From Clostridia bacterium (GTDB lineage Bacteria > Bacillota > Clostridia > Christensenellales > Aristaeellaceae), in the NCBI GenBank assembly GCA_017464305.1, contig JAFUDS010000001.1:217812-281811 (forward strand): 64,000 nt of DNA, written 5' to 3'. The position numbers and the translations under genes are program-made. Under the pieces are notes generated by a model. The model ran no database searches. It saw only the letters and a list, made by a program, of their open reading frames with translations, and was not told the DNA's origin. Position 1 is the first letter of the stretch. Each line of letters begins with the position of its first letter. This document shows, one piece after another, positions 6,576 to 37,804 of this stretch.

Positions 6576-6635
6576 TGAAACAGGGGGACGGTCTTTTTCG
6601 TTTCATGAAACGAAAAAGACCGTCCCCCTGTTTCA
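6576..6635. repeat. Perfect 60-bp palindrome of the GGGGACGGTC family
   Basis: The arms 6576-6605 and 6606-6635 are exact reverse complements over 30 bases with no loop (centre GTTTCA/TGAAAC). The palindrome stops exactly where the stop codon of the GH32 gene begins (6636-6638). On RNA it would fold into a perfect hairpin and could act as the 3' end of the GH32 transcript. It looks like two inverted copies of the single unit seen at 22108-22136. Confidence 0.95.
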
Positions 6636-8108
6636 TTATCCTAAACGGTGCGCGACCACCTTTACCTGGATTGGCGCGTCCGCGGCGAAGGTAATTCCCT
6701 CCGCGTCCAGCGGCGTGGGAATGAGCGAGGTGACCACCCGCTCCCCTTCATTGATGAACAGCTCGATGCTCTCCTTATCCATCAGCAGCCGCAGCGTCAA
6801 TTGCCCTTCCCGAGGCTCCGCTTTTACATGCCGGGTATGGGCAATATCTCGAACGGAACCGCCGTGACTGCGGTCAAAAATCAGCTCTCCCCGGGCCAGA
6901 TCGCATCGAATCTGGATAAAGTGGCTTTCATCCCGGGCGACCCGCAGGGTAAACCTACGGCAAGCTGAATTTTCCGCCCGTAGCGTAACCGTCATATCCA
7001 TCAACCGGCCCTGTACGCCCGGCAGGCTGATTTCCTCCTGGGCCACCGTGGCCTCCTGCAGGATGGTATCCTGCCACAGGGTTTCCATCTCCCTGACCGG
7101 CCGCTGGCAAAGCCGCCCCTCCCGCAGGAACAGCTCCCGCGGCGCGCTCATCTGGGCGTACCAGGGATGACGCCGAGGCGCTTCCTTGCAGGTTTCCCAG
7201 TTATCCATCCATCCGATCATGATCCGCCGGCCATCCGGCGCCTGCACCGTCTGGGGCGCGTAGAAGGTCAGACCATGATCAATCGGCTGAATACTCTCCC
7301 GAGTGAAACGGCAATCTTTTTCATCAAAGGCGCCCAGAATCGCCACCGTGCCGTATCCCGCGTGGAATTCCTCCCGGGCATGCATTTCCTGAGGGCTGAC
7401 CAGCAGCACCTGCTTCCCTTCCAGCGCAAAGAAATCCGGGCACTCCCACATGCGGCCATACTCGCCGCGGCTGCTATCAATCTCTCCCCGGAATTGCCAG
7501 TCCAATCCATCCGGGCTGGCAAACATAACGATGGTTCCCTGTTTCTCCGCGTGCCGATTCCCCGCCACCATGCGGAAGGAGCCATCCTCCGCCATCCAGA
7601 TCTTCGGATCCCGGAAATCAAACTCGCTGTATCCCTCCGGCAGATGCGCGTGCCGCACCACCGGATTCAGCAGGCTCTTTTCAAAATTGACCCCATCCCC
7701 AAAGGCCACGCACTGGGCCTGGGTTTCCCGCCGGAAGGTTCCCGCGGGCTGCACTCCCGTATAACACAGCATCAGGCGCCCATCCGGCAGCGGTACTGCG
7801 CTTCCGGAGAAGCACCCCCCCGCGTCCGCCGCCGTGTCCGGCGCCAGGGCGCATGGCTGATAGGTCCAGTGCAGCAGGTCGGAGCTGACCACATGGCCCC
7901 AATGCATGGGCCCCCATTGACGGGAAAAAGGATGGTATTGATAGAACAAATGGTATTGCCCCCCATAGTAACAAAACCCGTTCGGATCATTCATCCACCC
8001 CACCAAGGGGGTCAAATGGAATAGCGGCCGCTCCTGGGCGGAAATTTTCTGGGCCTGTTCTCTTTCGAATTCCCGTACCCGAACCAGGGGGAGAGGGTTA
8101 TTGCTCAT
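6636..8108 (-). CDS. GH32 family beta-fructosidase (sucrose-6-phosphate hydrolase/fructanase)
   Basis: This 490-residue enzyme cleaves beta-fructosidic bonds in sucrose (phosphate) or fructo-oligosaccharides. It shows the three GH32 signatures: WMNDPNGF with nucleophile Asp41, FRDPK (about 166-168) and WECPDF with acid/base Glu222. A C-terminal beta-sandwich follows (SIELFINEGERVVTS). No signal peptide is seen, so it acts in the cytoplasm. The ATG at 8108 is chosen over one 69 bases upstream because GAGGAGGAAC lies just ahead of it and the extra residues match no family feature. It is the last gene of the transporter operon, behind a hairpin. A decayed copy of part of this gene lies at 20470-20693. 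Confidence 0.95.
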   Translation of the reverse strand: MSNNPLPLVRVREFEREQAQKISAQERPLFHLTPLVGWMNDPNGFCYYGGQYHLFYQYHPFSRQWGPMHWGHVVSSDLLHWTYQPCALAPDTAADAGGCFSGSAVPLPDGRLMLCYTGVQPAGTFRRETQAQCVAFGDGVNFEKSLLNPVVRHAHLPEGYSEFDFRDPKIWMAEDGSFRMVAGNRHAEKQGTIVMFASPDGLDWQFRGEIDSSRGEYGRMWECPDFFALEGKQVLLVSPQEMHAREEFHAGYGTVAILGAFDEKDCRFTRESIQPIDHGLTFYAPQTVQAPDGRRIMIGWMDNWETCKEAPRRHPWYAQMSAPRELFLREGRLCQRPVREMETLWQDTILQEATVAQEEISLPGVQGRLMDMTVTLRAENSACRRFTLRVARDESHFIQIRCDLARGELIFDRSHGGSVRDIAHTRHVKAEPREGQLTLRLLMDKESIELFINEGERVVTSLIPTPLDAEGITFAADAPIQVKVVAHRLG

Positions 8109-8139
8109 GGGAGTTCCTCCTCTGTTTGATTTGAATAAA

Positions 8140-8165
8140 CCGGGAGCCGGTATTCCGGCCCCCGG
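8140..8165 (-). terminator. Strong hairpin between the binding-protein and GH32 genes
   Basis: CCGGGAGCCGG (8140-8150), loop TATT, CCGGCCCCCGG (8155-8165): an 11-bp stem with one mismatch. On the transcribed minus strand it is followed by TTTATTC. It lies in the 78-base gap and probably acts as a partial terminator or stability element, making GH32 less abundant than the binding protein. Confidence 0.65.
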
Positions 8166-8186
8166 CAAAAGGTTCAATTTATCGGC

Positions 8187-9806
8187 TTATTGGGCCGCCA
8201 GGTAACGATCATACACGTTCTGATAGATCTCCAGCAGGGTGCTCATGCCGCAGCGCTCCAGATAGCTCTTGTAGGCTTCCCATTCCTGATCGGTGGGGCC
8301 GCCATTCTTGATCCACAGGGCTTCTTGCTCGGCAACAGCCTTTTCGAAGTCCGGCCGATAGTAATCGATATCGTCCAGCTCGCTCTCCGTAAACACACAG
8401 TCCTGGGGATAGAAGGTATCATCCTTCACGAACTGCATCCAGTAATCATAAGTATCCGCCAGGCGCTCTTGGGCACGATCTTCCATGTAGAAATACTCAT
8501 TGTAGTATTCGCTCAGAATCAGCTTCGGACCGGCCACTTCCATCTGGGCCTTCAGCTCGCCGGAGGACTTGTTATACTTTTCGCGGGATTCCTCGTCCGT
8601 GATGGAGATCCACATGCCCTTCTCATCCTGAGCAGTGAAATATACGCCGATGGGGCCATACTGCAGCTGCATCACATTCTCGCCCGCATACCACAGATCG
8701 TAGAAGCTCAGCAGCTTGGCGGGATCCTTGCACTGGGCGGTGATGGACAGCTGGCCCGCGTTGGTGGCGCCGCCGGTCCGCAGGTTCACATTGCTGTCTC
8801 CGTCCGGGCCAGTCAGGATGGGCAGGTACACATAGTCCGCCGCATGCTCCCCCATGATCTCGTTGATTTCCCACCAGGTGCTGACGCCCACGCGGCCGCC
8901 GGAGCACTTGGCGATCAGCTGGTTGGTATCCTGAGAGAACATTTCCAGATCCATCAGGCCTTCCGCGAACCAGTCATGGAAATAGGTCAGGGCCGCGCGA
9001 TAGTTATCGTCGTCAGAGACGAAGTTCACCTTACCATCCTTGTCCACCACCAGGTCCATGCACACGTCATTGATCCAGTTGGTGAAGCCGAAACCGGCAT
9101 AGAACACGTTCTGACCCCAGCACCACTCGTCGAAACCGGTGCTCATGGGAATGGTGGAACCCGCTTCGTTGCCATAATACTTGGCGGACATGTCGTTCTC
9201 TTTGAAAGCGGTCAGCACCGTATGCAGCTCATCCAGGGTGGTGGGAACCTCCAGGCCCAGGTCATCCAGCCAGGCCTTGTTGATCATGGAGAACTGGGGC
9301 ACGCTGAAGATGGAATAGTCCTTCTCCCGGCCGATACCGGCGGTACCCATCTGTTCGCCCGCGGGCAGGCCGTAGATCTTGCCATCGCTCATGGTGATGG
9401 CAGCCTTCACAACGGGATGGGATTCCAAAATCGCGCTCAGGTTGGGCATGATTTCGGGGGTAATGTAGGGGGTCAGATCGATGAAGGTGCCGGCGGAGCC
9501 GTACCGCATCAGATCATAGTTGCTGAATCCTACGGCCTGGAAGGCGTCGATGGGCTCCCGGCTGGCAGCGTTGCCGCTGATGCGGGTGCCAACAACTTCG
9601 CCCAGGCTGTCAGACCAGGTGTCCCACTTAATGGTGACGCCGGCCTGTTCCTGCATGGCATTCAACACTTCGCTGTTTTCATAACCAGCGGAGAGGGCGG
9701 AGATGCCGCTCAGCACGTTGAATTCGGTCTGGCCTTCGGCGGAGGCGACTGACACCAGGGACAGCAGCAACGCCATCGCCAATACAATAGATACGAGCTT
9801 CTTCAT
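8187..9806 (-). CDS. CUT1 sugar ABC transporter solute-binding protein (fructan/sucrose locus)
   Basis: This 539-residue extracellular binding protein belongs to the large LplA/YtcQ-like group. The N terminus is a standard Sec signal peptide (MKKLVSIVLAMALLLS, then SVASAEG) with a signal-peptidase I site of the ASA kind and no lipobox cysteine. That is unusual for a monoderm Firmicute binding protein. The two permease genes lie upstream in the same direction, 184 bases away across a hairpin-rich gap, and GH32 lies downstream. The ligand is presumably a fructo-oligosaccharide or sucrose, inferred from GH32, the fructokinase and the shared operator sites. Confidence 0.9.
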   Translation of the reverse strand: MKKLVSIVLAMALLLSLVSVASAEGQTEFNVLSGISALSAGYENSEVLNAMQEQAGVTIKWDTWSDSLGEVVGTRISGNAASREPIDAFQAVGFSNYDLMRYGSAGTFIDLTPYITPEIMPNLSAILESHPVVKAAITMSDGKIYGLPAGEQMGTAGIGREKDYSIFSVPQFSMINKAWLDDLGLEVPTTLDELHTVLTAFKENDMSAKYYGNEAGSTIPMSTGFDEWCWGQNVFYAGFGFTNWINDVCMDLVVDKDGKVNFVSDDDNYRAALTYFHDWFAEGLMDLEMFSQDTNQLIAKCSGGRVGVSTWWEINEIMGEHAADYVYLPILTGPDGDSNVNLRTGGATNAGQLSITAQCKDPAKLLSFYDLWYAGENVMQLQYGPIGVYFTAQDEKGMWISITDEESREKYNKSSGELKAQMEVAGPKLILSEYYNEYFYMEDRAQERLADTYDYWMQFVKDDTFYPQDCVFTESELDDIDYYRPDFEKAVAEQEALWIKNGGPTDQEWEAYKSYLERCGMSTLLEIYQNVYDRYLAAQ

Positions 9807-9897
9807 GGGAATTCCTCCTATTTTGATTTATTTTCAGCATCTTTCTGATGCCGTGGTACAAGGGGTGGGGTGGGCGATCGTCGAATTTCTTCCGGTC

Positions 9898-9944
9898 GCC
9901 AACATAGTCGCGACTGCCCACTGGGCAGATCGCTTCTTGTTGGC
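9898..9944. repeat. ACT-loop hairpin element (copy A)
   Basis: GCCAACA (9898-9904) pairs with TGTTGGC (9938-9944). Inside, GCGA pairs with TCGC and CTGCCC pairs with GGGCAG around the loop ACT (9920-9922). It lies in the gap between the permease and binding-protein genes. The apical G/C stem with an ACT loop is shared with 9948-9995, 28359-28391 and 28480-28512. Confidence 0.8.
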
Positions 9945-9947
9945 TCT

Positions 9948-9995
9948 GTTAAAATTCGACGAGATTTCCGCCACTGGCGGTCGTCGAATTTTAAC
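9948..9995. repeat. ACT-loop hairpin element (copy B), overlapping a stop codon
   Basis: GTTAAAATTCGACGA (9948-9962) is an exact reverse complement of 9981-9995. Inside, CCGCC pairs with GGCGG around ACT, with a one-sided GATTT bulge. The right arm covers the stop codon of the permease gene (9991-9993). With copy A it probably forms an RNA processing or stability block between permease and binding-protein messages. Confidence 0.88.
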
Positions 9996-10902
9996 CCTTT
10001 ACTGCGCCGGCCATCAGGCCCTTTTCGAAGTATTTCTGCACGAAGGGATAGATGATCAGCATGGGAGCAGCTGCCACAATGATGGAGGAGAACTTAATCA
10101 TTTCCGTCATCTTGTTCAGCTCCGCGTAGCCACCGTTGATCATGCTGGCCTGGGAGGCGGAGGCGGAGGACTTGATCAGAATATTCCGCAGCACCAGGGG
10201 CAGGGGCGCCTGATCGTTGGTCATGTAAATCAGGGCGGTGAACCAATCGTTCCAGTAGGCCACCATAGAGAACACCACCATCACGGAAAGGATCGGCATG
10301 CTCAGCGGAATAATCATGGAGAAGAAAATCCGGAAATGGTTCGCGCCGTCGATGCTGGCCGCTTCCTTCAAGGATCCAGGAATGCTGGATTCGAAGTAGT
10401 TCCGGGCAATGATTGCATTGCTGACCGCCACGCCGCCCGGCAGGAACATGGCCCAAATCGTCTGCATGATTCCGGTCTTCTGCACGATCAGGTAGGTGGG
10501 AATCAGGCCGCCACCGAAGTACATGGTAATGATGAAAAAGATGCTGATAATCTTCTTGCCCGGCAGATCGCTGACGGACAGCGGATAAGCTACCAGGTAG
10601 ATCATCGCTACGGAGAAGATGGTTCCCACCACGGTGTACAGGATGCTGTTTCCATAGCCCCGCACAATGTTCTGTTCCGCAAAAACAGCCTTATATCCGT
10701 CCAGGGTGAACTGGCTGGGCAGCACAAAGGTTTTTCCGGCATAGACATCATAGGGATCCGAGAAGGAAGCCACCAGCACGTAATACAGCGGGTAAGCCAC
10801 CAGGAGAAGGATCAGCACGGAGATCACGATCAGGATGATATCGCTGGTACGGTCGCTGAAGCCTCCCAGCTTACCCTGCTTCTTGTTCGCGACAACAGAC
10901 AT
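9991..10902 (-). CDS. CUT1 sugar ABC transporter permease, LplC/YtcP type (fructan locus)
   Basis: This 303-residue inner-membrane protein has about six transmembrane helices. The cytoplasmic EAA loop that docks to the ATPase reads EAASIDGANHFRIFFSMIIPLS, matching the EAAxxDGA rule of carbohydrate permeases. The C terminus EKGLMAGAVKG is typical of the LplC subgroup. It starts 17 bases after the partner permease and precedes the binding-protein gene. Its last codon lies inside the inverted repeat at 9948-9995. Confidence 0.93.
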   Translation of the reverse strand: MSVVANKKQGKLGGFSDRTSDIILIVISVLILLLVAYPLYYVLVASFSDPYDVYAGKTFVLPSQFTLDGYKAVFAEQNIVRGYGNSILYTVVGTIFSVAMIYLVAYPLSVSDLPGKKIISIFFIITMYFGGGLIPTYLIVQKTGIMQTIWAMFLPGGVAVSNAIIARNYFESSIPGSLKEAASIDGANHFRIFFSMIIPLSMPILSVMVVFSMVAYWNDWFTALIYMTNDQAPLPLVLRNILIKSSASASQASMINGGYAELNKMTEMIKFSSIIVAAAPMLIIYPFVQKYFEKGLMAGAVKG

Positions 10903-10919
10903 TTCTTTCTCCTCCCCTC

Positions 10920-11855
10920 TTACACAAAGCTGACTTCGCCATATTTCTTGGCGACGCGGTTCACGATCAGCAGCAGCACGATATTGATGGCCGTGTTGAA
11001 CAGGCCCACCGCGGTTCCCAATTCGTACTTGGCGCTGACGATGCCCTGTTCATACACATAGATGGCGATGATATCGCTGGTGGCCCGGTTCAGATCCGTC
11101 TGCAGCAGGTAAGCTTTTTCGAAGCCCACGCTCATGAGGCCGGAAGCGCTCATGATCAGCTGCAGGATGATCATCGGCAACAGGCAGGGCACGTCGATGT
11201 GCAGAATCCTCTGGAAAACGCTGGCACCATCCACCTTGGCCGCTTCATATAGCGCGGGATCCACGCTGGACAGGGTTGCCAGATAAATGATGGTTCCCCA
11301 GCCCGCTTCCTGCCAGATTCCGCTGGCCACGTAGATGGTCCGGAAAGCGGTGGACTCCGTCAGGAAATCAATATTCGTCCCGGCAATCAGGTTGATCAAT
11401 CCGCCGGAGGGACTCAGGAAGATCCGCAGCATACCACAGACCACCATGGTGGAAATAAAGTGCGGCGCGTAGATCACGGTTTGCACCGTGCGCTTCAGCT
11501 TCTTGAACCTTAGCTGGTTCAGCGCCAGGCTCAGCAGAATCGGCACCGGGAAACTCCACAGCAGGCTGAACAGGCTCAGCTTCACCGTGTTCCACAGCAT
11601 CCGGTCGAAGGTAGGCGCCCTGAAGAAGCGCTCGAACCATTTCCACCCTGCCCAGGGACTCCCGGTAATTCCCAGCCCTGGATTGTAATTCCGGAAGGCA
11701 ATCTGGATACCGTACATGGGCCCATACTTGTACACGATGGTCAGCACCACCGGGATCAGCAGGAGCACATATAGTTGCCAGCTGTCCTTCATGCGACGGC
11801 CCAGGCTCTTTTTATGAACCTTCGGGGCCCTCGCGGTCGTTGAGGTCATGTCCAT
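10920..11855 (-). CDS. CUT1 sugar ABC transporter permease, LplB/YteP type (fructan locus)
   Basis: This 311-residue partner permease has about six membrane helices after a basic cytoplasmic N terminus (about residues 1-25). The EAA loop reads YEAAKVDGASVFQRILHIDVPCL. It is the first gene of the minus-strand operon (permease, permease, binding protein, GH32). Its promoter and operators lie in the 250-base divergent region shared with the LacI gene. AAAAGGGGG precedes the chosen ATG; a second ATG two codons later is possible. Confidence 0.93.
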   Translation of the reverse strand: MDMTSTTARAPKVHKKSLGRRMKDSWQLYVLLLIPVVLTIVYKYGPMYGIQIAFRNYNPGLGITGSPWAGWKWFERFFRAPTFDRMLWNTVKLSLFSLLWSFPVPILLSLALNQLRFKKLKRTVQTVIYAPHFISTMVVCGMLRIFLSPSGGLINLIAGTNIDFLTESTAFRTIYVASGIWQEAGWGTIIYLATLSSVDPALYEAAKVDGASVFQRILHIDVPCLLPMIILQLIMSASGLMSVGFEKAYLLQTDLNRATSDIIAIYVYEQGIVSAKYELGTAVGLFNTAINIVLLLIVNRVAKKYGEVSFV

Positions 11856-11916
11856 TCCCCCTTTTCATGAATTAATTGTCTCCCTGCTCATGAAACGTTT
11901 CATGAACTCTGCTCAT

Positions 11917-11946
11917 AAAATACCATATTCATCCCTCCTCTGTCAA
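11917..11946 (-). promoter_or_regulatory. Sigma-A promoter of the fructan transporter operon
   Basis: On the minus strand TTGACA (11946-11941) is followed after 18 bases by TATTTT (11922-11917). The 18-bp operator palindrome at 11888-11905 lies over the start region, where bound repressor would block initiation. Confidence 0.8.
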
Positions 11947-12039
11947 TCCCCTTTTGGCAAAAAATGGAAAAATTATTTCCATCCTCCATTTTCATGAAAT
12001 ACCTTGCTGGGATTAATTTTGCTTTACCGTAGAAAAGAC

Positions 12040-12068
12040 TTGACTTTATTTCATGAAAATGCTATTCT
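12040..12068 (+). promoter_or_regulatory. Sigma-A promoter of the LacI-fructokinase operon
   Basis: TTGACT (12040-12045), 17 bases, TATTCT (12063-12068). One operator (12048-12060) fills the spacer and another (12070-12080) covers the start region, the classic layout of an autoregulated repressor gene. Confidence 0.85.
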
Positions 12069-12105
12069 GTTTCATGAAATCAGCAATTCACAGGAGGGAA
12101 AGATT

Positions 12106-13095
12106 GTGGCAAAAGCAAAGAACGCCCCAACCATGGCAGATGTGGCCCGGGAAGCGGGTGTGGCTCTGGGAACCGTCTCCCGCGTCATCAATGGCCAACA
12201 GGTCGGTGAGGAATTTCGCCGCAAGGTGGAGGAAGCCATCCAGCGCCTGGGTTATCAATATAACAACAGCGGCCGCGCGCTTCGGACGGATCGGACGAAC
12301 ACCATCGCCCTGATCATTCCCAACACCATCAACCCCTACTTCGCACTCCTGGTGCATCACATTAACATCGAGCTGGAGAAGCGGAATTACCGGATGCTGC
12401 TCTGCTTTACGAAATACGACCGGGATCGGGAAACGGAATTCATCCAGATGGTTCGGCAGAATCGGGCTGATGGGATCATCGCCTTGACCTATAATCCGAA
12501 TCTAACCATCCCTGACGATATCCCCTTCGTCACCATCGACCGTTTCTTTTCCGTCTCCGTCCCCTGCATCGCGGCGGATAACTTTGGCGGTGGCCGAATT
12601 GCCGCGCAAAAGCTGGCGGAATTCGGCTGCCGAAAGGTGGCCTTCCTGCGGACCGGTTCTTCCCTGACCAATGAGCCCAGCAAGCGTAAAGATGGCTTTG
12701 TCAGCGCCTGTGTGGAGCTGGGGCTCTCCTTTGAGGTGCTGGCTCTGGAGGATGAAGCGCCCTATAGTCAATTTGAGGATTTCCTGCAGGAGCATGTCGT
12801 AGACGGAAAGCTGTCCCTGGATGGTCTCTTTCTCGGAACCGACATGCTGGCCTGGCAAATCATTCAATCGCTTCAACGGATGGGCTTCTGTGTGCCGGAG
12901 GATGTGCAGGTCATCGGCTTTGACGGCATCCGCATGTTCGGAAATCAATCCTATGTAGTTTCCACCATTGTGCAGCCAGTGCAGGATATTGCGGAAGCCT
13001 GTGTCAGCGCTGTGCTCTCCCGCCACTTGTCCACCATTCCCTCCCTGATCTGCCTGCCCGTGCATTATGCCTCCGGCGGAACAACCAAGGAATAA
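12106..13095 (+). CDS. LacI-family transcriptional repressor of fructan/sucrose use
   Basis: This 329-residue regulator has an N-terminal helix-turn-helix (PTMADVAREAGVALGTVSRV, about residues 8-27) followed by a hinge and a periplasmic-binding-protein-like sugar sensor domain (IALIIPNTINPYFALLVHH; VIGFDGIRMF). The GTG at 12106 is chosen because AGGAGGG lies 8 bases ahead and the helix-turn-helix then starts where LacI proteins usually have it. The longer frame from 12004 would run through the promoter and operators. It probably represses both itself and the divergent transporter operon until a fructose-derived effector binds. The fructokinase gene follows 32 bases later. Confidence 0.92.
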   Translation: MAKAKNAPTMADVAREAGVALGTVSRVINGQQVGEEFRRKVEEAIQRLGYQYNNSGRALRTDRTNTIALIIPNTINPYFALLVHHINIELEKRNYRMLLCFTKYDRDRETEFIQMVRQNRADGIIALTYNPNLTIPDDIPFVTIDRFFSVSVPCIAADNFGGGRIAAQKLAEFGCRKVAFLRTGSSLTNEPSKRKDGFVSACVELGLSFEVLALEDEAPYSQFEDFLQEHVVDGKLSLDGLFLGTDMLAWQIIQSLQRMGFCVPEDVQVIGFDGIRMFGNQSYVVSTIVQPVQDIAEACVSAVLSRHLSTIPSLICLPVHYASGGTTKE

Positions 13096-13127: not shown

Positions 13128-14060
13128 ATGATTGACGTCGTTGCTCTGGGAGAATTGCTGATCGATTTCGCGCCGCAGGGGGCCAATGAATCCGGCTATC
13201 CCCTGCTGTCCGCCAATCCCGGCGGCGCGCCTGGGAATTTCCTGGCTGCCCTGACAAAATATGGCTGCTCCACCGCCATGATCGGCAAGGTGGGAGATGA
13301 TCAGTTCGGTCGGCTGCTGTTGGGTACGCTGAAAGGGGCCGGCATTGACGTTTCCGCCGTCCTGTCCGATCCCTCCGTCTTTACCACCCTGGCCTTCGTA
13401 GCCCTGGATGAAAGCGGAAATCGGGATTTCAGCTTTGCCCGGAAGCCCGGCGCGGATACCTGCCTCCGGCCGGAGGAGGTTCCAGCGGCTCTGATCTCTC
13501 AGGCCCGGGTTTTTCATTTCGGCACCCTGTCCCTGACGGACGAGCCCGTTGCATCCGCCACCCGGCGAGCTGTTCAGCTGGCGAAGGAAAACGGCGTCCT
13601 CATCAGCCTGGATCCCAACCTGCGCAAGCCCCTTTGGTCCTCGGAGCAAGCAGCCAAGGAAGCCATCGAATTGAGCCTGCGCCAGGCGGATATCGTCAAG
13701 ATCAGCGATGAAGAGATTGAATTCCTCTGGGGACTTTCTCCCGAGGCGGGCGCGGCGAAGCTGCTCTCAGAGTACGGCGTATCCCTGGTCTATGTCACTT
13801 TGGGGCCCAAGGGCTGCTACGCCGCCAACCAAGTCTGCCATGTGCAGGTCGCCAGCCCCAGCGGTATTCATGTGGTGGATACCACTGGCGCCGGGGACAT
13901 CTTCGGCGGCAGCGCCATGAGCCAATTCCTGAAAACAGGAAAATCCCCCGCTGAGCTAACAGCGGAGGATCTGCAGAAAATCGTTACCTTTGCCTGTACC
14001 GCTGCCAGCCTTTCCACCCAAAAGCACGGCGGCATTACCAGCGTGCCTGACATGCCGTGA
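13128..14060 (+). CDS. PfkB-family fructokinase
   Basis: This 310-residue ribokinase-fold sugar kinase has the substrate-side motif NPGGAPGNFLAAL (about residues 29-41) and the anion-hole/catalytic-base motif DTTGAGDIFGG near residue 255. The enzyme would phosphorylate the fructose released by the GH32 enzyme for entry into glycolysis. The ATG at 13128 is preferred because AAAGGAGAG lies 8 bases upstream; an ATG 24 bases earlier has no such site. It shares the LacI promoter. Fructose as substrate is inferred from operon context and the overall match to ScrK-type kinases. Confidence 0.9.
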   Translation: MIDVVALGELLIDFAPQGANESGYPLLSANPGGAPGNFLAALTKYGCSTAMIGKVGDDQFGRLLLGTLKGAGIDVSAVLSDPSVFTTLAFVALDESGNRDFSFARKPGADTCLRPEEVPAALISQARVFHFGTLSLTDEPVASATRRAVQLAKENGVLISLDPNLRKPLWSSEQAAKEAIELSLRQADIVKISDEEIEFLWGLSPEAGAAKLLSEYGVSLVYVTLGPKGCYAANQVCHVQVASPSGIHVVDTTGAGDIFGGSAMSQFLKTGKSPAELTAEDLQKIVTFACTAASLSTQKHGGITSVPDMP

Positions 14061-14071
14061 AACAGAGAGAC

Positions 14072-14096
14072 TGAAACGGAGGGACGGTCTTCTTTT
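14072..14096. repeat. GGGACGGTC dispersed repeat, degenerate single unit
   Basis: The unit CTGAAACGGAGGGACGGTCT followed by TCTTT lies in the 35-base gap between the convergent fructokinase and nucleoside-hydrolase-like genes. It ends at the stop codon of the latter (14096-14098). It differs from the 3176-3229 units at a few positions. Confidence 0.7.
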
Positions 14097-15019
14097 CAGG
14101 GTCGATAATTGATGGCCAGCTTTGCGAAGAAATCCTCCAGCGTCAGGCGGGCATTTGCATCCTTGTAGACGCGGATTTCTCTGGGGGCATTGCCAGGAAT
14201 ATATCGGGATGTATTCGGATCAATCCGAGGCGCGGGGCGCACTTCAAACACATCCTCTCGCTCAGATTCAAACAAAAGCAATCCCACGGTCGGGGAATCC
14301 CCCAATCCCCAGATTTCTCCATGGGGCCAATGGGGGATTTCCGCGAGCTTCAGGTTAAAATCAGCCATCTGTTCAAAAAGATATTTTCCGATTTCCCCGC
14401 AGGGAGCGACCTTATATTGCAATTCCGCCAAGGAAACGGCCATCTGTTTATATACATTCTTGGGCACCTGCCAAAGGGGCATTGCAGAGGATAGCACCAC
14501 ATTGGCCGCGGCGATGTCCACATCCTGATTAAACTCATGCTCGCCCTCCGGATAAGCGCCGCCGCCAATCCAAATACAGGTGGCGCGCTCACAAATCCTT
14601 GGCTCCAGCAGGATGGCCGAGGCCAAATCCGTCAGCGTTCCCTGGCAGGCAATATACAGAGGGCGGGGATCCTCCCGCAGCGCTTCCTGGATAATGAACC
14701 GGGCACCAGGGGAATCCTGGGGCGTGTTTTCATCCTGCAGCGGCCCATCGGCTCCTTTTTCTACGGGGCAAACCCCTTCCAGATCCATGAGCTTTAAGAT
14801 CAGCTGAACCTCCTCGAAGCTGGCCTGGCAGGAGGTCCCGGTATGCCTGAAAGGGGTTTCAAAATGCGCTGGGATAATTCCCTGAACGTCGAATTTAGGC
14901 GTCATCAGATGGTGCGCAATGGCAAATTGATCGTCCGCCTCGTTCTTTGCGTCGGTGGAAATCAGCATGCGAACGCGTTTCTGCTCTGGGACAACGAACC
15001 CGTAATGAAATTGTTTCAT
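14096..15019 (-). CDS. Nucleoside-hydrolase-like (IUNH superfamily) protein
   Basis: This 307-residue protein resembles inosine-uridine-type nucleoside hydrolases. The N-terminal metal motif appears as STDAKNEADDQFA, a variant of the usual DTDxxxDDxxA. Later family marks include ACQGTLTDLASAILLEP and a conserved Asn/Asp stretch EFNQDVDIAAANVVLSS. Such enzymes cleave N-glycosidic bonds of ribonucleosides. Because the metal loop deviates and the gene follows a sugar transporter operon, the true substrate may be another glycoside. It begins 103 bases after the binding-protein gene, across a hairpin, so partial readthrough is likely. Confidence 0.8.
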   Translation of the reverse strand: MKQFHYGFVVPEQKRVRMLISTDAKNEADDQFAIAHHLMTPKFDVQGIIPAHFETPFRHTGTSCQASFEEVQLILKLMDLEGVCPVEKGADGPLQDENTPQDSPGARFIIQEALREDPRPLYIACQGTLTDLASAILLEPRICERATCIWIGGGAYPEGEHEFNQDVDIAAANVVLSSAMPLWQVPKNVYKQMAVSLAELQYKVAPCGEIGKYLFEQMADFNLKLAEIPHWPHGEIWGLGDSPTVGLLLFESEREDVFEVRPAPRIDPNTSRYIPGNAPREIRVYKDANARLTLEDFFAKLAINYRP

Positions 15020-20469: not shown

Positions 20470-20693
20470 GCTTCCTCAGAGCAGAAACAGCTCCCGCGTC
20501 CGCCGCCGTGTCCAGAGCCAGGGCGCAGGGCTGATAGATCCAGTGCAACAGATCCGAGCTGACCGCATGGCCCTCATGCATGGGCCCCCATTGACGGGAG
20601 AAGAGATGGTATCGATAGAACAGATGGTACCGCCCCCCAATGGTAGCAAAACCCATTCGGATCGTTCATCCATCCCACCAGCGGCGTCAAATG
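20470..20693 (-). pseudogene. Decayed fragment of a GH32 gene
   Basis: Read on the minus strand, this 220-base stretch encodes HLTPLVGWMNDPNGFCY, then after a one-base insertion HLFSRQWGPMHEGHAVSSDL and ALALDTAADAG. These parallel residues 31-98 of the intact GH32 enzyme at 6636-8108. The reading frame is broken in the run of Gs near 20635. Both ends are truncated: similarity starts just after the terminator at 20694-20715 and fades near the GAAGCGCAG at about 20470. It is a remnant of a duplicated or transferred GH32 gene. Confidence 0.88.
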
Positions 20694-28358: not shown

Positions 28359-28391
28359 GCGAACGCCCCACTGGGGCGACGGTCGGTTCGC
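28359..28391. repeat. ACT-loop hairpin element (copy C)
   Basis: GCGAAC (28359-28364) pairs with GTTCGC (28386-28391); GCCCC (28365-28369) pairs with GGGGC (28373-28377) around ACT, with an 8-base one-sided bulge GACGGTCG. Including the next two Ts, 35 bases are identical to copy D. Confidence 0.9.
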
Positions 28392-28479
28392 TTTTCCGCA
28401 ACCTCAATCGTCGCATGGCCGCCTTGGAGCGGCGGCCCTGCTCGTTTCGGTTGATGCGCTTACCTTCCTTTCGCCTCCG

Positions 28480-28512
28480 GCGAACGCCCCACTGGGGCGA
28501 CGGTCGGTTCGC
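28480..28512. repeat. ACT-loop hairpin element (copy D), abutting the rpsN stop codon
   Basis: It is an exact copy of the element at 28359-28391, displaced by 121 bases. It ends at 28512, immediately before the rpsN stop codon (28513-28515), so the stop lies at the foot of the hairpin. Confidence 0.9.
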
Positions 28513-31712: not shown

Positions 31713-31730
31713 GTTGAATCCTCCTTCGCC

Positions 31731-32114
31731 TTACTTCTGGTCAAGCACCACGCTGATATGGCTGGTGCGCTTGAGCATGGGAGATGCGCTGCCGCGAGAG
31801 CGGGCAACGTACCGCTTCAGGGTGGGGCCAGGATTGGCATACACCTCTGCGACATAAAGGTTCTGGCGGTTCAACTCCTGGTTGTTCACCGCGTTGGCGA
31901 TGGCGCTGTTCAGCAGCTTCGCAACAACGGGGCTGGCAGCCTTGGGGGTGTACTGCAGAATGGCCAGGGCTTCGTCCACATTCTTGCCGCGGATCAGATC
32001 AATGACGATCTTCACCTTGCGGGGAGAGATGCGAACGTACTTGGCATGAGCCTGCGGCCGCTTGTCGGCATTCGCCTTACGGGCTGCCGCTTTTTCCTTA
32101 GAACGGGTAGCCAT
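31731..32114 (-). CDS. rplV: 50S ribosomal protein L22
   Basis: This 127-residue protein has the L22 signature RAQ-type core ([19 protein letters not shown]) and the tunnel-lining hairpin ([20 protein letters not shown]-like). The N terminus has a basic extension of about 20 residues. Confidence 0.97.
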
Positions 32115-32133
32115 AGACTTTCAACTCCTCTCC

Positions 32134-32412
32134 TTATTTCCGATTGCTGTTCTTGTCGCCTGCGTGTCCACGGAAGGTGCGGGTGGGGGCGAACTCGCCC
32201 AGCTTGTGGCCAACCATGTCTTCAGTCACATAGACCGGCACATGCTTCCGTCCGTCATGAACGGCGATGGTGTGTCCCACGAAATCCGGGAAGATCGTGC
32301 TGGAGCGGCTCCAGGTCTTCACGACGCTCTTCTTACCGGAATTGTTCATCTCTGTAATGCGCTTCATCAGCGCGCCCTCTACATAGGGGCCCTTTTTAAT
32401 GGAACGACTCAT
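32134..32412 (-). CDS. rpsS: 30S ribosomal protein S19
   Basis: This 92-residue protein ([19 protein letters not shown]) contains [19 protein letters not shown] and [18 protein letters not shown], the S19 signature. Confidence 0.98.
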
Positions 32413-32436
32413 TTCCTCTCAGTAGCCTCCTTCCGA

Positions 32437-33270
32437 TTACTTCTTGCCGGCGCGCTTGACGATCATCTTGTTGGAATACTTCTTGTGCTTCCGGGTCTTG
32501 TAACCCAGCGCGGGCTTGCCCCAGGGGGTCACAGGAGCGGGCATACCGACGGGGCTCTTGCCCTCGCCGCCGCCGTGCGGGTGATCATTGGGGTTCATAA
32601 CAACGCCGCGGACGGTGGGACGGACGCCCATGTGGCGAACCCGGCCGGCCTTACCCAGACGAACGTTCTCATGATCAGTGTTGCCAACAGTACCGATGGT
32701 GGCCTTGGCGTTCAGCGGCAGCTTCCGCATTTCACCGCTGGGCAGACGCACCTGCGCGTATCCGTTTTCCTTCGCCATCAGCTGGGCGCTCATGCCCGCG
32801 CTGCGAACCAGCTGGCCGCCGCGGCCGGGCTTGATCTCCAGGTTGTGGATCAGGGTACCGACGGGGATGTTGCTGATGGGCAGGGCGTTACCGGGCTTGA
32901 TGTCCGCGTTGTCGCTGGAGATCACGGTGTCGCCCACCTTCAGGCCCAGAGGCGCCAGGATGTAGCGCTTCTCGCCGTCGGCGTAGAACAGCAGAGCAAT
33001 GAAGGCGCTGCGGTTCGGATCATACTCAATCGCGTTGACCTTGGCGGGGATGTCGATCTTATCCCGCTTGAAGTCGATGATACGATACTTGACTTTGTTG
33101 CCGCCGCCCTGGTGACGCACGGTAATCTTGCCCTGGTTGTTGCGGCCGGCGTTCTTCTTGAGGTACTCGGTGAGGCTCTTCTCGGGCTTCTTCTTCGTAA
33201 TCTCCTCGTAGGTCAGAACCGACATGAAGCGCCGGGCGGGCGAAGTCGGCTTGTAAACTCGAATAGCCAT
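32437..33270 (-). CDS. rplB: 50S ribosomal protein L2
   Basis: This 277-residue peptidyl-transferase-centre protein has [20 protein letters not shown] near the start and [19 protein letters not shown], containing the conserved His of L2, near the end. Confidence 0.98.
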
Positions 33271-33292
33271 GTTTTCGTCTCCTCCCTGCTAT

Positions 33293-33598
33293 TTACTCGC
33301 CCATGCCTTCGAAGAACTTGATGGGCTTGGAGTCCTTCTTCAGCGTGACATAGGCCTTCTTGGTCTCGGGCGTTCTGCCCTGGGTCCGTCCCTGCCGCTT
33401 GATCTTACCGATGGTCCGCAGGGTGTTCACCTTTTCCACCTTCACGCCGTCGTCCGCGAAAACGGTTTCGATGGCAGCCTTGATCTCGGCCTTGTTGGCG
33501 TGAACATCTACTTCGAAGACATAGCGCTTGTCGGCGATGCCTTCATACGCCTTTTCAGTGAGGACGGGGCGCTTGATGATATCATAGGCATTCTTCAT
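33293..33598 (-). CDS. rplW: 50S ribosomal protein L23
   Basis: This 101-residue protein (MKNAYDIIKRPVLTEKAYEG) is the tunnel-exit docking protein for trigger factor and SRP. Its ATG overlaps the rplD stop (TAATG). Confidence 0.98.
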   Translation of the reverse strand: MKNAYDIIKRPVLTEKAYEGIADKRYVFEVDVHANKAEIKAAIETVFADDGVKVEKVNTLRTIGKIKRQGRTQGRTPETKKAYVTLKKDSKPIKFFEGMGE

Positions 33599-34221
33599 TA
33601 CGCGTACACCTCCTCGACGGATTCCTTGGCGGCCTTGGTCAGCACGACCTTGCCGGCATTCAGGATGTCATACACATTCAGGGTGTTGACATAAGTGGTC
33701 TTCGCCTGGGCCAGGTTCGCGGTGGCGCGGACAACGTTTTCGTCCCGCTCCGGCAGAACCACCAGTGCCTTGCGATCGGCGTTCAGCTTCTTCAAGGCTT
33801 CCGCCATCAGCTTGGTCTTGGCTTCCTTCAGGTTCAGCGCATCCACGACGATGATCTCGCCGGCGTTGAACTTCGCGGTCAGAGCGCTGCGGAACGCCAG
33901 CCGGCGAACCTTCTTGTTCACGCCTACCACGTAATCCCGGGGCTTGGGCGCGAACACCACACCGCCGTGCTTGAACTGGGGCGCGCGGTTGCCATGGTGC
34001 CGGGCGTTACCGGTGCCCTTCTGGCGGTAGATCTTCCGGCCGCCCCCGCGAACCTCTCCGCGGGTCAGGGCGCTCTGGGTGCCCTGGCGCTGGGCTGCCA
34101 GGTAGGAACGGACGACCAGATGCATGGCGGCTTCGTTGATGGGAGCGGCGAAAATCGCGTCGCTCAGCTCCACCTCGCCAATGGTCGCTCCTTCCATATT
34201 ATAAAGAGCAGTCTTAGCCAT
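33598..34221 (-). CDS. rplD: 50S ribosomal protein L4
   Basis: This 207-residue protein has the tunnel loop with GRKIYRQKGTGNARHHGNR. In several bacteria L4 autoregulates its operon, which is of interest given the structured leader upstream of rpsJ. It overlaps rplW by one base. Confidence 0.98.
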   Translation of the reverse strand: MAKTALYNMEGATIGEVELSDAIFAAPINEAAMHLVVRSYLAAQRQGTQSALTRGEVRGGGRKIYRQKGTGNARHHGNRAPQFKHGGVVFAPKPRDYVVGVNKKVRRLAFRSALTAKFNAGEIIVVDALNLKEAKTKLMAEALKKLNADRKALVVLPERDENVVRATANLAQAKTTYVNTLNVYDILNAGKVVLTKAAKESVEEVYA

Positions 34222-34244
34222 TGTACTTTCTCCTTCCCTTCACC

Positions 34245-34886
34245 TTAGGCCTTGACGGTGTCACGGATGATCAGCAGGCCTTCGTTGGGGCCGGGCACAG
34301 CGCCCTTGACCAGCAGCAGGTTGCGTTCCGCGTCCACCTGGACGACTTCCAGATTCTGCACCGTGACCCGATCCACACCGTAGTGGCCGGCCATGTGCTT
34401 GTTCTTGAACACCCGGCTCGGGTCGGAGTTCGCGCTCAGAGAGCCAACGCCGCGGTGATACTTGGAGCCGTGCGCCATGGGGCCGGTGTGCTGATTCCAA
34501 CGCTGGATGGCGCCAGTGTAGCCGTGGCCCTTGCTGGTGCCAGTAACGTCGATTTTGTCGCCGCTGGCGAACTGATCAGCCTTCAGCACGTCGCCCACTT
34601 TATAGCCGCTGCAGTCGTCGAACCGGAATTCCCGCAGATGACGCTTGGCATCCACGCCGGCCTTCTTGAAATGGCCCAGCTCCGGCTTGTTCAGCAGCTT
34701 CTTGGCCCGAGTCTCGGTCAGATCGCCAAAACCGACCTGCACGGCATCGTAGCCATCGCTTTCCTTGTTCTTCGTCTGCACCACAGTGCAGGGGCCCGCT
34801 TCAATCACGGTGACCGGGATCAGACGTCCGTCTTCCGCGAAGACCTGAGTCATACCGATCTTTTTACCCACGATCGCTTTCTTCAT
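34245..34886 (-). CDS. rplC: 50S ribosomal protein L3
   Basis: This 213-residue protein ([20 protein letters not shown]) contains [20 protein letters not shown] and a final MAGHYG stretch typical of L3. It is one of the first proteins to bind 23S rRNA in assembly. Confidence 0.98.
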
Positions 34887-34902
34887 TCTTCTTTCCTCCC
34901 GC

Positions 34903-35211
34903 TTACAGCTTCATTTCGATTTCGACACCAGCAGGAAGATCCAGCTTCATCATGGCGTCCACCGTTTTGGGATTCGGGTTAATGATGTCGATCAAACGCT
35001 TGTGAGTCCGGCGCTCGAACTGCTCGCGGCTGTCCTTGTACTTGTGCACAGCGCGCAGGATGGTCACTACCTCACGCTCGGTGGGCAGCGGGATGGGGCC
35101 GGAGACACGGGCGCCAGTGCGCTTGGCGGTTTCCACGATCCGCTCGGCGCTCTGATCGATCAATTTGTGCTCGTAGCTCTTCAGCTTGATACGAATTTTC
35201 TGGTTGGCCAT
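34903..35211 (-). CDS. rpsJ: 30S ribosomal protein S10
   Basis: This 102-residue protein ([20 protein letters not shown]) has the S10 signature [20 protein letters not shown]. It is the first gene of the operon, preceded by GAGGAGG and a leader of about 170 bases. No tuf, fusA, rpsG or rpsL lies upstream. Confidence 0.98.
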
Positions 35212-35381
35212 TACCTTTTAACCTCCTCGATTTCGTTCTCGTTTTGCCGCTTTGGAGGGAGTTCGCAGGTGCTCCCCCGGGTTCGGCTTTTCGAGTCCGT
35301 CGCCCGATTGACGGGCTGGTCCAGGATAATTACCCGCCTGGCCTGGCGGCAACTTACCCCTTCATCCCTACACAGACAACA
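35212..35381 (-). promoter_or_regulatory. Structured leader of the S10 operon
   Basis: The ~170-base untranslated leader between the promoter and rpsJ holds several potential hairpins on the minus strand: CCGCC/GGCGG within GCCGCCAGGCCAGGCGGG, GCCCG/CGGGC around TCAAT, and GGGGGAG/CTCCC. This could be a site of ribosomal-protein feedback, but no known leader motif is recognised. Confidence 0.5.
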
Positions 35382-35386
35382 GTCGT

Positions 35387-35415
35387 ATTATACACGACTT
35401 GGTCAAGCAAATCAA
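35387..35415 (-). promoter_or_regulatory. Promoter of the S10 operon
   Basis: On the minus strand TTGATT (35415-35410), exactly 17 bases, then a perfect TATAAT (35392-35387). Confidence 0.85.
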
Positions 35416-35743
35416 TAGGGAAAACCCGGTTTTTTGAAAAAATATTTGAAAAATTTCGGACTTGTCAGCCTCCCAACCTGGCCATTTATCTTGCTTTTTG
35501 AAATTAGCATTGTACACTGTTTCATGCGTGCCTATGTTTTGAACAAATCGCGTTAATTCGTGGGTTTTCCCGCTTTTTCAGAGAATCCCTGTTTCCATCA
35601 ATCCCTTATTTTTCAACTCTTTCTCAGCTCTCATTTTGAACACTTCTCCATGCGTATCCATATCCATTTTCTTTTCACTTCCTATTTCCGACCTAAATTC
35701 CTCCTCCCCCATTATGCGGGGAATCCTTCCACCAACGTATAAA
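35416..35743. other. AT-rich intergenic stretch without a recognised feature
   Basis: About 330 bases between the S10 promoter and the ABC-F terminator. It is clearly more AT-rich than the surroundings, with long T runs, and may include upstream promoter elements. I see no convincing gene, RNA or repeat. Confidence 0.6.
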
Positions 35744-35785
35744 AGAAGAGAAGCTCCTCCCCATTCGGGAAACAGCCTCTCTTTT
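35744..35785 (-). terminator. Terminator of the ABC-F gene
   Basis: On the minus strand AGAGAGGCT and AGCTTCTCT form an outer stem with TTCCC/GGGGA inside, followed by TCTTTTAT. It begins about 10 bases beyond the ABC-F stop codon. Confidence 0.7.
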
Positions 35786-35794
35786 CCTTCCTCT

Positions 35795-37696
35795 TTATGT
35801 CTCTTCCAGCTCTGCCCAGGCTTCGTACAGCTGGTCGATCTTTTCCTTTTTCGCGTTATACTCCCGGGTAATCCGAGCCCCCTCCTCCGGATCCCTGTAG
35901 GTCTCCGGGTCGGAAAGCCGCTTTTCCATCCGCTCCGCCTCCGCCTCCGCGTCGGCAATTTCCTTCTCCAGAGCCTTCAGCCTTTCCTTCCGTTCCTTTT
36001 CCTTCCGCTGCTCTTCCCGGCTGCGCTTCTTTTCCTTGTCCGCGGCGGTCTTCGTCATCTGGGGCAGATCCCCATCCGGCTCCTGATCCCGGCTCACCTT
36101 GGCGAAATAATCATCATAGTTCCCCAGGTATTCCTTCAGCCGCCCATCCTCCAGCACGCAGACCTTCTGGGCAAAGCGGTTGATGAAATAGCGGTCATGG
36201 CTGATGGCGATAATCGTCCCATCGAATCCCTCCAGCGCCTCCTCCAGCACCTCCCGGCTGTCCATGTCCAGGTGGTTAGTGGGCTCGTCCAGCAGCAGCA
36301 CGTTATCCTTCCGCAGCATCAGCTCCGTCAGGGCCACCCGGCCCTTCTCCCCGCCGCTGAGGGTGGAGATAGGGCTGAACACCTCGTCCCCTGTGAAGAG
36401 GAATTGGCCCAGGGCGCCCCGAACCTCGTACTGCTCCAGCCGCCGGAACTTATCCCATACCTCGTCCAGGATGGTCTTTCCCTCGTCCAGCCCCGCCTGG
36501 TGCTGGTCATAATATCCGATATCCACGCCAGCGCCCCAGCGGATCATGCCGGCGTCCGGCCGCTCCTGGGCGATCAGGCACTTAAACAAGGTGGATTTCC
36601 CGGTACCGTTATCCCCGATCAGGGCGATGCGATCCCCGGCCCGGACGTGCATTTTCAGATCCTGGAACAGGGTCCGATCCTGGTATCCCTTGCGCAACCC
36701 CTCCGCGATCAGCACATCCTCCCCCGTGCGCCGCCGGGTTTCAAAATGGAAATGAATCGCCCCTTCCTCCTGGGGCTTCTCCAGCCGCTCGATTTTCTCC
36801 AACCGCTTTTCCCGGCTCTCCGCCGCCTTGATGCTCTTTTCCCGGTTGAAGCGGCGGTAGGTGGCGATGATGGCCTCCTCCCGGGCGATCTCCCGCTGCT
36901 GCATCTGCCAGGCTTTCATGCGAATCTCGTACACCTGGGTGCGCTTTTCCAGATATTCGGTGTAATTCCCATTGTAGGTCTCAATGGCGCCCATCAGCAG
37001 CTCCGCCATTCTGCCGCACACATGGTCCATGAAATAGCGGTCATGGCTGATGACCAGCACCGCCCCCCGGTAGCTCTGCAGATATTCCTCCAGCCAGGCG
37101 ATGCTCTTCAAATCCAGATGGTTGGTGGGCTCATCCAACAGCAGCAGATCCGGGTTGCTCAGCAGCATCCGCCCCAGACAGAGCCTGGTTCTTTCCCCGC
37201 CGGAGAGAATTTTCGTCCGCTGATCCTGGTACTCCCGAAGGTTCAACCCAGCCAGCACTCCCTGCACCTGGCTGCGCCATCCGTAGCCATTGCCGTCCTC
37301 AAAGGCCCGGGTCAGGCTGTCGTATTTTCCGCCCAGCCGCCGCAGCAGCTCCGGATCCCCCGCCGCCTCGGCCATCTGGGCCTCCGTCTCCCGCATTTCC
37401 TGCTCCAGGGCGACGATGGGGTCGAACACGCTTTCCAGCACCCGCAGTACGGTCTCCTCCCCGCTGAGTTCCCCCTGCTGGGCCAGGTATCCCAGCCGCA
37501 GGCCCTTCTGGATGCTGACGGTTCCATCGTCTGCGGTCTCTTGCCCGGCGATGATCTTCATCAGCGTGCTCTTGCCGCTGCCGTTGACCCCTACCAGGCC
37601 CATTCGTTCCCCCTCCTGCAGGGTAAAGCTGGCGTCCTTCAGCACCTCATGGGTGCCAAAGCTCTTCTTCACTCCCTGCAGCGATAGTATGATCAT
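35795..37696 (-). CDS. ABC-F family ATPase (YdiF/Uup type)
   Basis: This 633-residue soluble protein has two ABC domains. Walker A sites are GVNGSGKST (about residue 36) and GDNGTGKST (about 360); signatures are LSGGE, and both Walker B motifs are followed by DEPTNHLD. The interdomain linker carries the P-site tRNA interaction region, and the last ~80 residues form a charged coiled coil, as in Uup/YdiF. Such proteins act on stalled or antibiotic-bound ribosomes rather than in transport. It has no membrane segment. A repeat lies in the gap upstream. Confidence 0.93.
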   Translation of the reverse strand: MIILSLQGVKKSFGTHEVLKDASFTLQEGERMGLVGVNGSGKSTLMKIIAGQETADDGTVSIQKGLRLGYLAQQGELSGEETVLRVLESVFDPIVALEQEMRETEAQMAEAAGDPELLRRLGGKYDSLTRAFEDGNGYGWRSQVQGVLAGLNLREYQDQRTKILSGGERTRLCLGRMLLSNPDLLLLDEPTNHLDLKSIAWLEEYLQSYRGAVLVISHDRYFMDHVCGRMAELLMGAIETYNGNYTEYLEKRTQVYEIRMKAWQMQQREIAREEAIIATYRRFNREKSIKAAESREKRLEKIERLEKPQEEGAIHFHFETRRRTGEDVLIAEGLRKGYQDRTLFQDLKMHVRAGDRIALIGDNGTGKSTLFKCLIAQERPDAGMIRWGAGVDIGYYDQHQAGLDEGKTILDEVWDKFRRLEQYEVRGALGQFLFTGDEVFSPISTLSGGEKGRVALTELMLRKDNVLLLDEPTNHLDMDSREVLEEALEGFDGTIIAISHDRYFINRFAQKVCVLEDGRLKEYLGNYDDYFAKVSRDQEPDGDLPQMTKTAADKEKKRSREEQRKEKERKERLKALEKEIADAEAEAERMEKRLSDPETYRDPEEGARITREYNAKKEKIDQLYEAWAELEET

Positions 37697-37718
37697 CTTC
37701 TTTCTCCTGTCCGTACCT

Positions 37719-37804
37719 GATTAGTCGTGCGAAGGGATGTTTCACTCTGGGGCCCTTGGAAGACGCCGGCACTTAGCGGGTGTCGAACGCGCATACGACT
37801 AATC
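37719..37804. repeat. Dispersed 65-bp repeat (copy 1) framed by an inverted repeat over a stop codon
   Basis: GATTAGTCGT (37719-37728) and ACGACTAATC (37795-37804) are exact reverse complements. They enclose a 65-base core (37729-37793) that starts GCGAAGGGATGTTTCACT and contains GGGGCCCTTGGAAGACG. The right arm covers the stop codon (37799-37801) of the WalJ-like gene. The core is about 90 % identical to 58766-58830. Confidence 0.9.

Follow-up and report, generated by a model that had tools for sequence, protein, structure and literature searches.

Palindromic repeats placed at gene stop codons in a Clostridia bacterium include a double hairpin whose foot holds the stop opposite its complement

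Results

A double hairpin with gene stop codons in its foot

A repeat of 103 nucleotides (nt), here called B2, forms a double hairpin that recurs throughout a genus of Clostridia and often begins at the stop codon of a gene, with the exact complement of that stop in its other arm. It was found in a stretch of 64,000 nt from a Clostridia bacterium (the window; GenBank assembly GCA_017464305.1, contig JAFUDS010000001.1, positions 217,812 to 281,811; G000:C51:217812-281811 in our numbering), the host draft genome comprising 2.53 Mb in 51 contigs and being 68.6% complete. A first-pass annotation of the window had reported palindromic repeats placed exactly at stop codons; this placement is confirmed, and the annotation understated it. 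Its count of at least three families holds in that three families (F1, B1 and B2) lie at stops, but the permease and rpsN cases probably belong to one superfamily, B2. B2 is the part worth pursuing.

Among 111 B2 matches in 84 loci, 87 are exactly 103 nt long. Eleven units from eight loci align without gaps, and 97.2% of the cells of 36 named pairs are paired. Twenty-three pairs have changed on both sides, compared to a mean of 11.4 in shuffled alignments, none of 500 of which reached 23, and to at most 5 in slid versions. A model built from the eight loci has matches (E ≤ 0.001) in every one of 45 genomes from the genus, which may be Aristaeella, with up to 41 per genome. The loci were not a random sample, consisting of 14 of the 26 own-genome loci, the best match in each of 30 genomes and 40 picked by hand from the upper listing; alignment A2 was fitted to the model structure and is biased towards it. 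The element at rpsN is not matched by the B2 model R1 at E ≤ 0.1, and probably belongs with the permease repeat in one superfamily.

When 97 units of 102–104 nt were compared, the nearest relative of a unit lay in its own genome 28 times, against a shuffled mean of about 7. Tandem partners made up 10 of these cases; the other 18 compare with a shuffled mean of 7.2 and a highest value of 19 in 2000 shuffles. Separately, the same permease end with B2 stands on two draft contigs (L226 and L229; C1:8799 and C8:15206), as an assembly duplicate or a recent duplication.

Genes were called with a home-made codon-usage caller; a Pfam family was found for 28 of 30 proteins tested, and none for those of loci L002 and L269. 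Offsets to stops were read from the 85 first, non-duplicate units among the 111 matches, which leaves aside duplicates and tandem units further on. In 52 of them the unit contains the stop, in 15 the stop is 60–913 nt upstream, four follow an opposite-strand gene and 14 have no gene called. Hence, where the upstream gene is on the same strand, its stop is within the left arm in 52 of 67 units. Counted from the first base of the unit, the stop is at offset 0 in 25, 1 in 16, 2 in 5, 3 in 1 and 8 in 5. Leaving out the loci of the model (n = 76), the tally is 45 inside, 15 upstream, 12 without a gene and 4 opposite, and among matches below 92 bits the stop is inside in 17 of 40. The bases GGG stand directly before 73 of the 85 first units; among the 33 first units away from stops, they do so in 25.

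For stops at offsets 0–2, the exact reverse complement of the stop occupies the corresponding position in the opposite arm of 42 of 46 units, the combinations being TAA/TTA (25), TGA/TCA (14) and TAG/CTA (3). Without the model loci the figure is 37 of 40. Of the 52 genes whose stop lies in B2, 38 end in KG, and the ten tested, including that of the window, are all BPD_transp_1 permeases. The others include genes for GMP synthase, an amino-acid kinase, FGGY kinases, RuvA and a MalK-like ATPase, as well as aspartokinase-like, RelA-like and phage Dit-like proteins.

Such a pattern could in principle arise by tolerance only, with palindromic repeats landing at random and surviving just 3′ of genes or where they end them in frame. 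Repetitive extragenic palindromes (REPs) are known to occur less than 20 bp from gene 3′ ends (PMC3733652), and 19 of 27 B1 copies have a stop no more than 30 nt from their core, which rarely sits on it exactly. Against this, the B2 stop is at 0–3 nt in 47 of 67 units and at 8 in five, none of the rest having it closer than 60 nt upstream, and the exact partner would remain to be explained. Tolerance is already hard to hold for B2 and remains good for B1; as the whole answer we consider it very improbable.

Pre-existing and donated stop codons

The first-pass annotation left room for stops having been created by the insertions. We compared sites with and without the elements at rpsN (20 loci), WalJ (20 plus L124), the permease (12), GH32 (12), PfkB (14) and GMP synthase (30), the own locus being included where present. 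Creation applies to PfkB and probably to WalJ, and not to rpsN, the permease or GH32, where relatives free of the repeat end at the same codon.

The permease carries B2 in three of its 12 loci (own, G031 and G039) and a different repeat in G002, and ends at the same KG codon without B2 in eight. In G002 (L199), that other element is bracketed by a direct repeat of ~38 bp containing the gene end and stop. For rpsN, the same TAA was read in 20 of 20 loci, with the element in the own genome only. The GMP synthase stop, too, pre-exists the element. Two of its 30 loci are cut by contig ends; TGGGAR is present in 18, of which three are filled, and GGG is missing in 10, of which none is filled, so that the tie between filling and GGG is suggestive only. 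Between G050 and G015, this gene is identical at 878 of 900 positions before the stop, and the first 72 nt past the unit match, followed by no in-register match within 1000 nt. The two genomes carry different B2 units and different stops (TGA and TAA, respectively), each with a matching partner that also pairs with the native GAA codon; thus, B2 units and stops change together.

At GH32, six relatives (75–81% identical) lacking the palindrome stop at the same codon (TAA in four, TGA in two), and the stop position therefore pre-existed. One of the six (L204) reads TGAAACGG at the gene end, which resembles an F1 end and may be chance or a trace. In contrast, PfkB ends three residues past GGITSVP, whereas this tail has 9–20 residues in the relatives (13 fetched, 12 of them readable), from which we conclude that its stop was donated by F1. 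The WalJ site of RGIG4436 (G046; L124) has a full-length B1 that shares its arms and TAG with the window copy, and the nineteen other relatives were read without B1 and with differing tails. As the B1 arm consensus TTTAGTCG carries TAG, the WalJ-like stop was probably supplied by B1.

Pair types point to DNA rather than RNA

If B2 acted as RNA, its stems would be expected to prefer G·U over A·C pairs. Across 106 distinct units (3728 cells), we counted 3544 Watson-Crick, 28 G·U and 21 A·C pairs, while 14 tRNAs from the same material (298 cells) gave 281, 17 and 0. G·U is thus no commoner than A·C in B2, which points to DNA rather than RNA.

This bears on the possibility that B2 is a functional mRNA element, in which the transcript is protected or processed by a double hairpin that begins at the stop, for instance between the permease and downstream binding-protein genes, and selection keeps both the stems and the stop paired. 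Such a role would fit the strong covariation, the near-constant length, the repeated occurrence at permease ends, the strand bias (67 upstream genes on the same strand and 4 on the opposite one) and the three genomes with B2 at the same site, whose arms are altered yet paired. It is at odds with the lack of a G·U excess, bearing in mind that the tRNA control comprised only 14 tRNAs. Of the window permease versions in the eight closest relatives (73–93% identical), six lack B2, which also occurs at genes as unrelated as those for GMP synthase, RuvA, FGGY kinase, MalK and phage Dit-like proteins, and is found nested in B1. We consider an mRNA function rather unlikely, while ranking it first among the alternatives.

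The annotation had also raised selection for repeats that end transcripts. For B2 this finds no support: no terminator-like site, defined by a stem and a T-run, was detected at 9892–9994, and there is no G·U excess. Ordinary terminators as the sole answer likewise find no support for B2, given the same lack of a terminator-like site. Neither B1 nor B2 has an Rfam match at gathering score, the sole overlapping matches being far under cut-off.

F1 is a REP family with its own transposase

The F1 motif, TGAAAC..GGGACGGTCTTTTTCGTTTCA, has 24 matches at up to two mismatches in the own genome, giving 18 clusters after merging of neighbours, and was matched in 4 of 30 relatives. It occurs in inverted pairs, and as a short extragenic palindrome in many copies it answers to the description of a REP. 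An open reading frame (ORF) of 310 residues with a Y1_Tnp domain, L012:501-1433(-), is flanked by inverted F1 copies at C37:4400(+) and C37:5426(-), the arrangement of REPs associated with a Y1 tyrosine transposase (RAYT, REP-associated tyrosine transposase). The ORF matches Pfam Y1_Tnp at 1.3e-15 and NCBIfam NF047646 (REP_Tyr_transpos) at 2.8e-20, with 72.7 bits, under the cut-off of 80. A Y1_Tnp match on G010 C17 is also flanked by F1 copies. The draft genome has just one other Y1_Tnp match, G000:C20:86764-87117 (L062), which is IS200-like TnpA with one in-frame TGA.

The terminal TGA of F1 is the stop of a gene in five of the 18 clusters (L006, L007, L009, L015 and L016), a raw count with no formal null. 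In one more a TAA abuts the REP end (GH32), and in another the stop is 1 nt away (L002). The genes ended by the F1 TGA have Pfam domains, the exception noted being that of L002, which has no Pfam family. The copy at 14058–14098 is more degenerate and lies outside the 18 clusters. At 6582–6629, the F1 palindrome scores as terminator-like.

We conclude that F1 is a REP and an ordinary case of a known phenomenon in another family. In PMC3733652, REP ends are described as supplying the stops of flanking ORFs, namely the TAG of GTAG REPs, and PMC2817692 reports REPs directly past the stop of rayt. F1 resembles the RAYT-mobilised GTAG-type REPs and bacterial interspersed mosaic elements (BIMEs) in being a short palindrome near gene 3′ ends, in giving flanking ORFs their stop and in having a transposase gene between inverted copies. 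It differs in that its stop is a TGA out of TGAAAC; neither a GTAG nor a CGTC end tag is present in F1, whose ends are TGAAAC/GTTTCA.

B1 is a structured repeat close to stops

B1 is a structured repeat with a conserved body of ~120–240 bp and no Rfam match, and its core is also found in other Clostridia. By BLAST, the own genome contains 43 pieces, and the 19 other genomes compared, which did not include RGIG4436, gave a single weak match. Thirty-eight named loci carry the exact core pattern: 18 are in RGIG4436, 13 in one Eubacteriaceae metagenome-assembled genome (MAG), 6 in Lachnospiraceae or Butyrivibrio MAGs and 1 in a MAG labelled Succinivibrionaceae. In this last one (L119; JAFURY010000052.1), B1 lies near the end of a fetched stretch, and a binning error may be involved. 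The B1 pattern was found on no viral contig, and the B2 pattern on one viral stretch. The literature on such repeats yielded nothing on B1 or B2, which is not proof of absence.

The B1 pairs were named by hand from the sequences, since RNAalifold on the MAFFT core gave a poor consensus; the slid controls are hence flattered. Fifty-five of 63 cores were aligned, those above 85 nt being excluded. Fifteen pairs are 91.8% paired over these 55 sequences, and eight pairs changed on both sides (shuffled mean 4.2, maximum 7); the 14 further pair types are inside the shuffled range (mean 10.8, maximum 15). In the flanks, the longest exact match reaches at least 8 nt in 40 of 61 copies, compared to 4 of 400 shuffled flanks and 59 of 400 flanks swapped among copies. 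With respect to stops, B1 is only loosely proximal.

B1 as a sense-strand RNA was rejected, the first-written strand being mostly antisense to its neighbours (27 versus 7 tandem cases; 13 versus 4 in the own genome and 8 versus 2 in RGIG4436, with insertions partly shared). On that strand the core has 8 G·T and 28 A·C cells, 19 of the latter in two columns and mostly from one MAG. An autonomous transposon with B1 ends on C18 was likewise discarded: the span contains a gene read as pyruvate kinase from its translation, with no family search. The tip of one B1 stem holds a nested B2 together with another hairpin; no B2 was found (E ≤ 0.01) in 20 loci with B1 outside RGIG4436. A third hairpin, of the ACAGTCCAGTGGACTGT type, is nested in one and the same apical stem in several B1 copies and also within a B2 hairpin (C51:48784, C51:325010, L088, L100, L115 and L196), which would fit hairpin tips serving as landing sites.

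Placements in the window

Within the window (Table 1), the gap between repeat and stop is 0 nt both at GH32 and between the hairpin 28480–28512 and rpsN, while the permease stop falls in the right arm (9981–9995) and the WalJ-like TAG in the arm 37795–37804. The degenerate unit near 14072, said to touch one stop, contacts two, both TGA: 14058–14060 (PfkB, plus strand) and 14096–14098 (nucleoside hydrolase, minus strand). As read from the ORFs, PfkB alone is on the plus strand, the other genes being on the minus strand. Contig C51 has 55 listed inverted repeats, and hairpins 0–45 nt past stops are frequent there; mere nearness of a hairpin to a stop is therefore unremarkable, and the exact placement is the unusual part.

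Table 1. Repeat elements and the stop codons they adjoin or contain, in window coordinates
Feature	Position	Strand	Remark
F1 cluster	3164..3230		10 nt past stop of ORF 2071-3153
F1 head-to-head pair, perfect 60-bp palindrome	6576..6635		adjoins GH32 stop
GH32 stop TAA	6636..6638	-	gene 6636-8177
B2 unit, 103 nt, two hairpins	9892..9994	-	permease stop in 5′ foot; 121.9 bits
ABC permease stop TAA	9991..9993	-	gene 9991-10902; pairs with TTA of opposite arm
Degenerate F1 pair between convergent genes	14058..14098		TGA at either end is the flanking gene's stop
Divergent B2-like element	28359..28512	-	hairpin at both ends (28359-28391, 28480-28512), B2 hairpin-B motif in middle
rpsN stop TAA	28513..28515	-	identical in all loci read
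B1, internally deleted, 86 bp	37719..37804		arms GATTAGTCGT/ACGACTAATC; close relative has full-length copy at site
WalJ-like stop TAG in B1 arm	37799..37801	-	probably element-donated
B1, full-length	58764..58907	+	adjoins SRP RNA gene

The full-length B1 copy adjoins a bacterial small signal recognition particle (SRP) RNA gene (RF00169, 58.8 bits; 58936–59034, minus strand). A recurrent intergenic hairpin, GCTCCCCCGC-GRA-GCGGGGGAGC, is present at 3253–3279 and 61691–61830 of the window and at C30:80346-80582, and likely represents terminators or an extra repeat family. The window also holds a direct repeat of 147 bp with 88% identity (7819–7965 and 20493–20639).

Discussion

On balance, we lean slightly towards the reading that these repeats are short, palindromic, REP-like single-stranded DNA elements that pair through their foot with the target, in this case the stop region. 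The elements would pile up on stop codons because joining a gene there does no harm, and two routes to this are seen. By the first, the element end brings an in-frame stop, as do the TGA of F1 and the TAG of the B1 arm consensus, and insertion into a dispensable gene tail supplies the new stop. By the second, B2 is seated just past GGG at native gene ends (AAG GGN TRA in ABC permeases, TGG GAA TRA in GMP synthase), and the stop becomes the foot of its first hairpin, facing its match on the inner side of the unit's other arm. Insertion may proceed as single-stranded DNA through a tyrosine (HUH) transposase of the RAYT/IS200 kind, and such an enzyme is present in the genome for F1. The inner-foot bases of B2 would then work like the guide of IS608, a member of the IS200/IS605 family whose tetranucleotide target is read by base pairing and can be re-programmed via the element (PMC5934647). 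We infer that B2 may move as single-stranded DNA and choose stops by pairing. In its strongest form, B2 would be a genus-wide mobile element that finds stops by base pairing, with inner-foot guides for TAA, TGA and TAG in different frames, the insertion past GGG sparing the protein and the stop being the recognised target; this version is possible but doubtful.

In 84 non-duplicate matches of exactly 103 nt, foot pairs 1–4 are Watson-Crick in 155 of 160 cells of first units with the stop at 0–3, compared to 31 of 56 in later tandem units. The inner pairs 5–14 remain Watson-Crick throughout (392/400 with the stop at 0–3, 265/270 away from stops, 30/30 with the stop at 8 and 135/140 in later tandem units). 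Positions −1 to −3 are paired, by Watson-Crick or G·T, in 62/120, 65/81, 7/9 and 15/42 cells of the same classes. The foot thus depends on the junction of the first unit with its flank, whether or not a stop is there. A junction-dependent foot is what target recognition by pairing would predict; selection or template switching can mimic it.

Template switching during DNA replication would copy one arm, stop included, onto the other, so that the stop would lie in the stem merely as the neighbour of a palindrome. PMC8794818 describes this process as both a maker and a keeper of hairpins, and it would suit the near absence of G·U intermediates from B2 pairing, the outer arms that vary among copies yet match, and the perfect 60-bp palindrome of F1. 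It leaves unexplained the near-constant length of B2, the preceding GGG and the decay of the foot in later tandem units whose inner arms are still paired. We regard it as unlikely, less so than tolerance and more so than an mRNA function.

Several observations weigh against recognition of stops by a mobile B2. Foot pairs 1–4 are Watson-Crick in 95 of 108 cells of first units away from stops, and in only 8 of 12 cells when the stop is at offset 8 (three 103-nt units), so that the foot follows the junction and not the stop as such. Covariation extends to the inner pairs 5–14, and pairing of guide with target would not by itself require this. No mobiliser was found for B1 or B2, the draft genome being 68.6% complete; the B2 model R1 had no match (E ≤ 0.01) in 12 Y1_Tnp loci and C37:1-20000, the Y1_Tnp class being the only one tested. 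B2 has no demonstrated target duplication or clean 3′ junction, and a partial further unit is present in some downstream flanks. Finally, the presence or absence of B2 among the permease orthologues could equally well reflect loss of an old element. The suggestion of the first-pass annotation that a REP-type transposase chooses the targets stands in part: a tyrosine transposase accompanies F1 and B2 looks targeted, given its GGG and a foot that pairs with the flank including the stop, while no transposase was found for B1 or B2.

B2 differs from GTAG-type REPs and BIMEs in being a 103-nt double hairpin preceded by GGG, with no transposase found alongside, and in that its stop-bearing foot covaries with the inner partner. 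It would share with IS608 a tetranucleotide target read by base pairing and re-programmable via the element, if its foot indeed serves recognition; unlike IS200/IS605 elements, its units are gene-free, and its foot pairing is only putatively target recognition. With the structured RNAs of Rfam it shares a conserved multi-stem structure with covariation, but B1 and B2 score below the gathering thresholds and the balance of G·U to A·C in B2 is not RNA-like.

Mobile elements must not break genes and, if our reading is true, an element that recognises stop codons through base pairing would solve this in a compact, natural way. B2 would then offer a ready series of guide-target pairs for site choice by a tyrosine transposase. 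The match between stop and partner makes a constraint at the level of DNA or of RNA directly testable. Even if B2 is immobile, it is unusual for a genetic-code signal to be tied to a DNA or RNA hairpin in this way, with 42 of 46 stops facing their exact complement.

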